Source: an uncultured Clostridia bacterium (lineage in GTDB: Bacteria; Bacillota; Clostridia; Christensenellales; UBA1242). From it: a stretch of DNA of 52,721 bases. Positions 1-1,836 of this stretch are shown piece by piece. The number at the start of each line of letters is the position of its first letter. Position 1 is the stretch's first letter. Made by a program: the position numbers and the translations under genes. The DNA is taken from NCBI GenBank assembly GCA_944384415.1, contig CALWTF010000004.1, forward strand, positions 1 to 52,721, written 5' to 3'. Under the pieces are notes generated by a model that saw only the letters and a program-made list of their open reading frames with translations, was not told where the DNA came from and did no database searches.

Positions 1-1836
<1,836 letters not shown>

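Follow-up and report, generated by a model that had tools for sequence, protein, structure and literature searches.

Results

The window, by which we mean the whole stretch of DNA analysed (52,721 nucleotides), corresponds to contig C4 in a bin of 1.045 Mb (G000, 95.8% complete). It opens inside a 23S rRNA gene truncated by the contig start, the 3′ part of which (Rfam model positions 1081–2925; cmscan RF02541, 1818.9 bits) occupies positions 1–1838 of the forward strand, and this is followed on the same strand by a 5S rRNA gene at 1985–2100 (cmscan RF00001, 82 bits), the only one found when the bin itself was searched. Sequence match and alignment to the E. coli 23S rRNA place GACGAAGAGACCCC (991–1004, forward strand) at E. 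coli 2053–2066. The alignment is gap-free, giving G at 2056, A at 2057 (position 995; G in E. coli), A at 2058 (996), G at 2059 (997; A in E. coli), A at 2060 and G at 2061, and C at 2611 (1549), which faces A2057 as an A·C mismatch. Standard E. coli numbers are used throughout; the annotation of the reference sequence (L152) begins one base late, and its index plus one is the standard number. A2057, A2058, G2059 and C2611, the bases reported in the initial annotation, are all borne out by this alignment. Downstream of about E. coli position 1250 the gene has bases that are rare (in at most 3% of the other 192 aligned sequences) at four positions only, 1263, 2020, 2694 and 2715. It does not look noisy, and mere rRNA decay is rejected on this ground.

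The 2059-site pattern was found once in the assembled genome, also when three mismatches were allowed; a second, divergent 23S piece, the 5′ part of a gene at 1–1674 of contig C11, ends before 2059. The one 16S gene of the bin lies on a third contig, C17 (712–2224), and just beyond it are imperfect direct repeats of about 90–115 bases (L187 1–510). The 16S gene appears unlinked from 23S–5S, as no 16S match lies in 20 kb of C11 or in 36 kb of G065, a genome of the same genus with its 23S–5S genes at about 61.4–64.5 kb of C1.

The history of the site was read from a tree of 192 loci plus E. coli in which 2056–2061 and 2609–2612 were masked. The window groups with its own genus, and a transferred rRNA operon is rejected accordingly. 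It belongs to a clade of four genera (g1, g15, g28 and g41) made up of G028, G074 with G052, G067 with G168, and G065 and G121 with the window. A2057 is common to all eight site-bearing genomes of this clade and is a lineage-wide state. At 2611 the three sister genera (five genomes) have U and the window's genus (three genomes) has C. Nine genomes of g1 were searched, of which four have any 23S there and three reach 2057. By parsimony the 2057–2611 pair passed from G-C to A-U once, in the four-genus ancestor, and then to A·C in the window's genus, with node supports along this path of 0.94 and up. Among the 166 sequences in which both bases are read, 128 have G-C, 34 A-U and four A·C, three of the last being the window's genus. 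A second, separate A2057-U2611 is found in G115 and G077, both with G2058; G115 (L031) combines A2057, G2058, C2609 and U2611. In G121 (L200), A2056 faces A2612 in addition to the A2057 with C2611. Comparison with related Clostridia, the check proposed in the initial annotation, supports it in part: the same-genus G065 and G121 share A2057 and C2611 with the window, but both have A2059. Within the clade G2059 is restricted to the window's genome, and since it is absent from G065 and G121 it may be recent or acquired.

To count changes in the window's family and order, the 112 listed loci that had been chosen for A2058 and G2059 were excluded throughout. Among the 70 tips of the pooled family and order set, 2059 is G in 11 and needs 11 changes, all of them at tips, and 2058 is altered in eight and needs seven, a total of 18 separate changes of which the window's G2059 is one. 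Closely related sequences can differ here, as in G196 (G2059) and G175 (A2059), whose 23S genes differ at 19 of 2,037 columns (99.1% identity). The reference set has 252 invariant columns. In the order set 231 of these stay constant and the most changeable of the 252 is 2058, with the proviso that the reference set (106 sequences) consists mostly of loci chosen for A2058 and G2059, which makes 2058 invariant partly by construction and leaves 2059 ungradable there. The peptidyl-transferase columns 2451–2453, 2499–2507, 2585 and 2602, untouched by the search pattern, show no change in the order set; the pattern fixes 2053–2056 and 2060–2066, and constancy at these in the order set is by construction. 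One locus that grouped with Bacilli (L011, from G105) was dropped from both the 252-column test and the 70-tip count. Another, outside the order clade (L159, from G444), was kept in the 252-column test (71 tips) and dropped from the 70-tip count; the 2058 and 2059 counts are the same with or without it, and its genome stays in the order sample of 47 described below. Some observations speak against a special role for 2058 and 2059. Frequent change in the family and order set is also seen at 2239 (eight times; 97% conservation in the reference set), 1628 (six) and 2574 (five), all 97–100% conserved elsewhere, and columns such as 2137 and 2141, with conservation below 97%, equal 2059 in homoplasy.

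The site itself was found without mismatch in 39 of 197 genomes of the family sample, which spans 42 genera and in which many genomes are 1.0–1.4 Mb and some up to 2.0 Mb. Allowing three mismatches gained one true site, that of G121, which has one mismatch, and one chance site, leaving 157 genomes without a true site. The pattern had no match in 158 of the 197 family, 349 of 396 order and 321 of 391 class genomes, missing 23S genes and differing sequence having been told apart in the family only. A change at 2058 or 2059 is present in 11 of the 39 family genomes kept for the tree. For the order sample the figure is 12 of the 47 site-bearing genomes, against one of 66 in the class outside the order, where 2058 is never altered and 2059 once (G864, to U); the difference has a Fisher p of 9e-5 with genomes treated as independent and phylogeny ignored. 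When the window's family is removed from the order the comparison is 8/40 with 1/66 (Fisher p = 0.0016, phylogeny again ignored). The earlier statement that 2059 is almost always A thus describes 65 of the 66 class genomes outside the order well and does not describe the window's own family and order.

More widely, species genomes were scanned for A2058 combined with G2059; this gave at least 112 stretches, so G2059 is not rare in nature. Among the matches listed, 2057–2059 read G-A-G in 83 and A-A-G in 29, and 27 of these 29 have U2611, all 27 under Rickettsiales names. The remaining two A-A-G loci among those listed are L108 (Patescibacteria), which has C2611 like the window, and L128 (Anaplasma marginale), in which 2611 is outside the coverage. 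The window is thus not alone in its state, and A2057 with G2059 is an established combination in a phylum other than its own. Ehrlichia, Anaplasma, Wolbachia and their kin among the Rickettsiales resemble the window in reading A-A-G at 2057–2059, but their U2611 keeps an A-U pair in 27 of the 28 A2057 plus G2059 loci listed (L128, uncovered, being the 28th), whereas C2611 in the window makes a mismatch. This Rickettsiales state goes with insensitivity to erythromycin. A search of the open-access literature found no paper on their A2057-U2611 plus G2059 state and, among the best-ranked matches, none on 2058/2059 variation in these Clostridia.

Both 2057 and 2059 are established resistance sites (PMC9376445 and PMC4916212, in extract), as the initial annotation had stated. 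According to PMC3681621, crystal structures place the hydroxyl of the drug's desosamine at N1/N6 of A2058 and N6 of A2059, simulation makes the contact of telithromycin to A2059 N6 a weak one, and disturbance of the pocket can proceed by way of the 2057–2611 pair, among other routes. Natural erythromycin resistance in several Mycoplasma is attributed to 2057A, and 16-membered macrolides are reported as still active on M. hominis (PMC9376445, PMC12209806). A close parallel to the window is found in this group, as M. hominis, M. fermentans and M. salivarium have 2057A as a species trait to which, in M. salivarium and together with C2611T, A2059G can be added (extracts of PMC9376445, PMC12209806). 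Every M. salivarium isolate has 2057A, to which their erythromycin resistance is ascribed, and in serial isolates MICs are higher with A2059G and C2611T than with C2611T alone: 0.125 and 8 for C2611T alone and 4–8 and 32–256 for three with A2059G, values that we read as those for clindamycin and erythromycin (PMC9376445, in extract). There, however, G2059 arose over time in the isolates of one patient, whereas the window is a Clostridium assembly with C2611. A2059G is also a known resistance change of pathogens such as Mycoplasma pneumoniae, the same domain V change (PMC4916212, in extract). Those pathogens are isolates, whereas the window is known from a genome alone and its background was already A2057. 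The window has G at 2059 where its close relatives G065 and G121 have A, as in target-site mutations of this type. A2143G of Helicobacter pylori we take to be the equivalent of A2059G.

Two other routes to resistance, Erm methylation and ABC-F protection, were sought in the same genome. The only hit to the Erm/KsgA family (RrnaAD) is KsgA, scoring 255 bits against a cut-off of 171 for that protein and 160 against a cut-off of 212 for the Erm model; Erm methylation as a second layer is rejected, this being the sole such hit in a 95.8% complete bin. Two ABC-F proteins both fall below the NF000355 cut-off of 380 bits, at 370 and 337. The higher-scoring, of 518 residues (L216 1498–3054, on contig C9), is near enough to the cut-off to remain a candidate for ribosomal protection.

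Discussion

We read the start of the window as a real 23S–5S locus of a Clostridium with a genome of about 1 Mb, whose ribosome is probably (roughly two chances in three) insensitive to macrolides and lincosamides through its target site, a state that would have evolved repeatedly and perhaps been aided by a single 23S copy. Insensitivity based on the rRNA is the best reading because both sites are established for resistance and no Erm was found in the 95.8% complete bin. The bases, their distribution and the parsimony order of the changes are observations; from these we infer a drug phenotype, selection and an effect of copy number. A2057 facing C2611 breaks a base pair adjoining the macrolide pocket, and G2059 replaces an adenine at the drug contact. 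The predicted ribosome has little affinity for 14- and 15-membered macrolides and a reduced one for those with 16 members and for lincosamides. In order of events, A2057 would have arisen once in the four-genus ancestor, where U2611 restored the pair, reversion of U2611 to C in the window's genus would have broken it again, and G2059 would have come later, on this genome's own branch. Such a change would most likely be kept where a ribosome-acting drug is present, and a single 23S copy, by letting a mutation act fully at once, may favour it. Of the natural insensitivity through its own rRNA that was first proposed for this organism, reduced sensitivity to macrolides and lincosamides stands as the best, putative, reading; the word natural is apt for A2057 with C2611 alone, a pair that all three readable members of the genus have, and not for G2059, which G065 and G121 lack.

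This last base could have a narrower history, in which macrolides or lincosamides used on animals or patients recently cost the strain its A2059 and the species as such is not insensitive at 2059. Its confinement to one genome of the A2057 clade would fit, as would the 11 separate origins of G2059 among the family and order tips, but each species is represented by one genome. Putative resistance changes can predate the drug (PMC12959087, in extract). We regard such acquisition as a real possibility that we doubt somewhat more than we favour, and it is a special case of target-site insensitivity, not its opposite.

A different matter is whether any drug need be involved. Positions 2057–2059 and 2611 might simply be tolerated, with lineages having a single 23S gene losing the consensus by neutral drift. 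All altered genomes of the order sample are indeed among those with a single match (12/37, against 0/10 of the multi-match genomes; p = 0.046, ignoring phylogeny and with assemblies that may merge rRNA copies), and the Rickettsiales, many of them endosymbionts, have A2057-U2611 with G2059 in all 27 such loci among the matches listed. Unlinked rRNA genes are a known kind of arrangement associated with symbionts and small genomes (PMC7761764, in extract), and the frequent change of other conserved columns (2239, 1628, 2574) would also be expected. In the rest of the class, however, one single-match genome in 30 is altered, whereas the order has 12 in 37 (p = 0.004; phylogeny is ignored, and many of these assemblies may have collapsed their rRNA copies). 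The class genomes outside the order were sorted by eye into 30 with a single match and 36 with several. The 231 unchanged columns of the 252 likewise speak against drift, and G2059 sits at tips whose relatives, with 23S genes up to 99.1% identical, keep A2059. The altered genomes outside the window's family measure 1.5–2.6 Mb, so that strong genome reduction is not needed and the pattern extends beyond reduced genomes. On this balance drift is an unlikely explanation, and target-site insensitivity is preferred.

The assembly was considered as a source of the base. Positions 1–596 of the window (forward strand) overlap the end of C11 (C11:1–595), a contig of the same bin, at 92.8% identity, with all 42 mismatches in 1–500 and the last 96 aligned bases identical, which looks like an assembly fork between two 23S versions, whether from two close species binned together or from two versions of the gene. 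In G065 the 23S–5S genes are flanked by C4-like genes on one side and C11-like genes on the other, and C4 and C11 therefore look like two halves of one locus. That the G at 997, which lies 401 bases past the end of C11, or the entire 23S contig end came from another species of the genus by misassembly or misbinning is suggested by this divergence and by the identical stretch at the fork, but it is very improbable given that the contig continues through 5S into genes syntenic with G065, that separately assembled genomes of the genus have A2057 and C2611 in common, and that G2059 turns up again in other family and order assemblies; even a foreign base would be that of a near relative.

In kind the case is ordinary: the target-site change is a known one, and what is new is the bacterium that has it, known from its genome alone. 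It is less so in its pattern, that of an order of Clostridia with recurrent change at the site and a genus that keeps 2057–2611 unpaired. We would tentatively go further, while putting it at a little under an even chance: the whole order, most likely of the gut, may be a hot spot in which the macrolide pocket has been remodelled many times (G or U at 2058, G at 2059, 2057–2611 turned to A-U twice and then to unpaired A·C in the window's genus). Selection would then have shaped a natural reservoir of drug-blind ribosomes, encoded in the chromosome, that catalogues of resistance genes do not see. A changed rRNA base in a bacterium known only from metagenomes escapes surveys that count such genes. 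Should the pattern hold across the order and reflect insensitivity, a substantial share of the species would survive courses of macrolides or lincosamides, and the state of 2058 and 2059 could, if this is true, record past exposure. The step from A-U to A·C in the window's genus would also be a natural test of the purpose of the 2057–2611 pair.

The bacterium probably lives in an animal gut, to judge from PMC12306168 and the names of isolates. Its family may be UBA1242 (GTDB; Christensenellales), to which the 42 genera of the family sample and a SpoIIE gene point and the size of many of the family's genomes does not. The vast majority of UBA1242 genomes are below 1 Mb and sporulation genes are reported in them (PMC12306168). 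A SpoIIE-like protein is encoded at 11034–13334 of the window, in a genome of about 1 Mb. Elsewhere in the window, 6388–9348 encodes a protein of 986 residues whose sole Pfam match is to the GLUG motif and which is possibly a surface protein.
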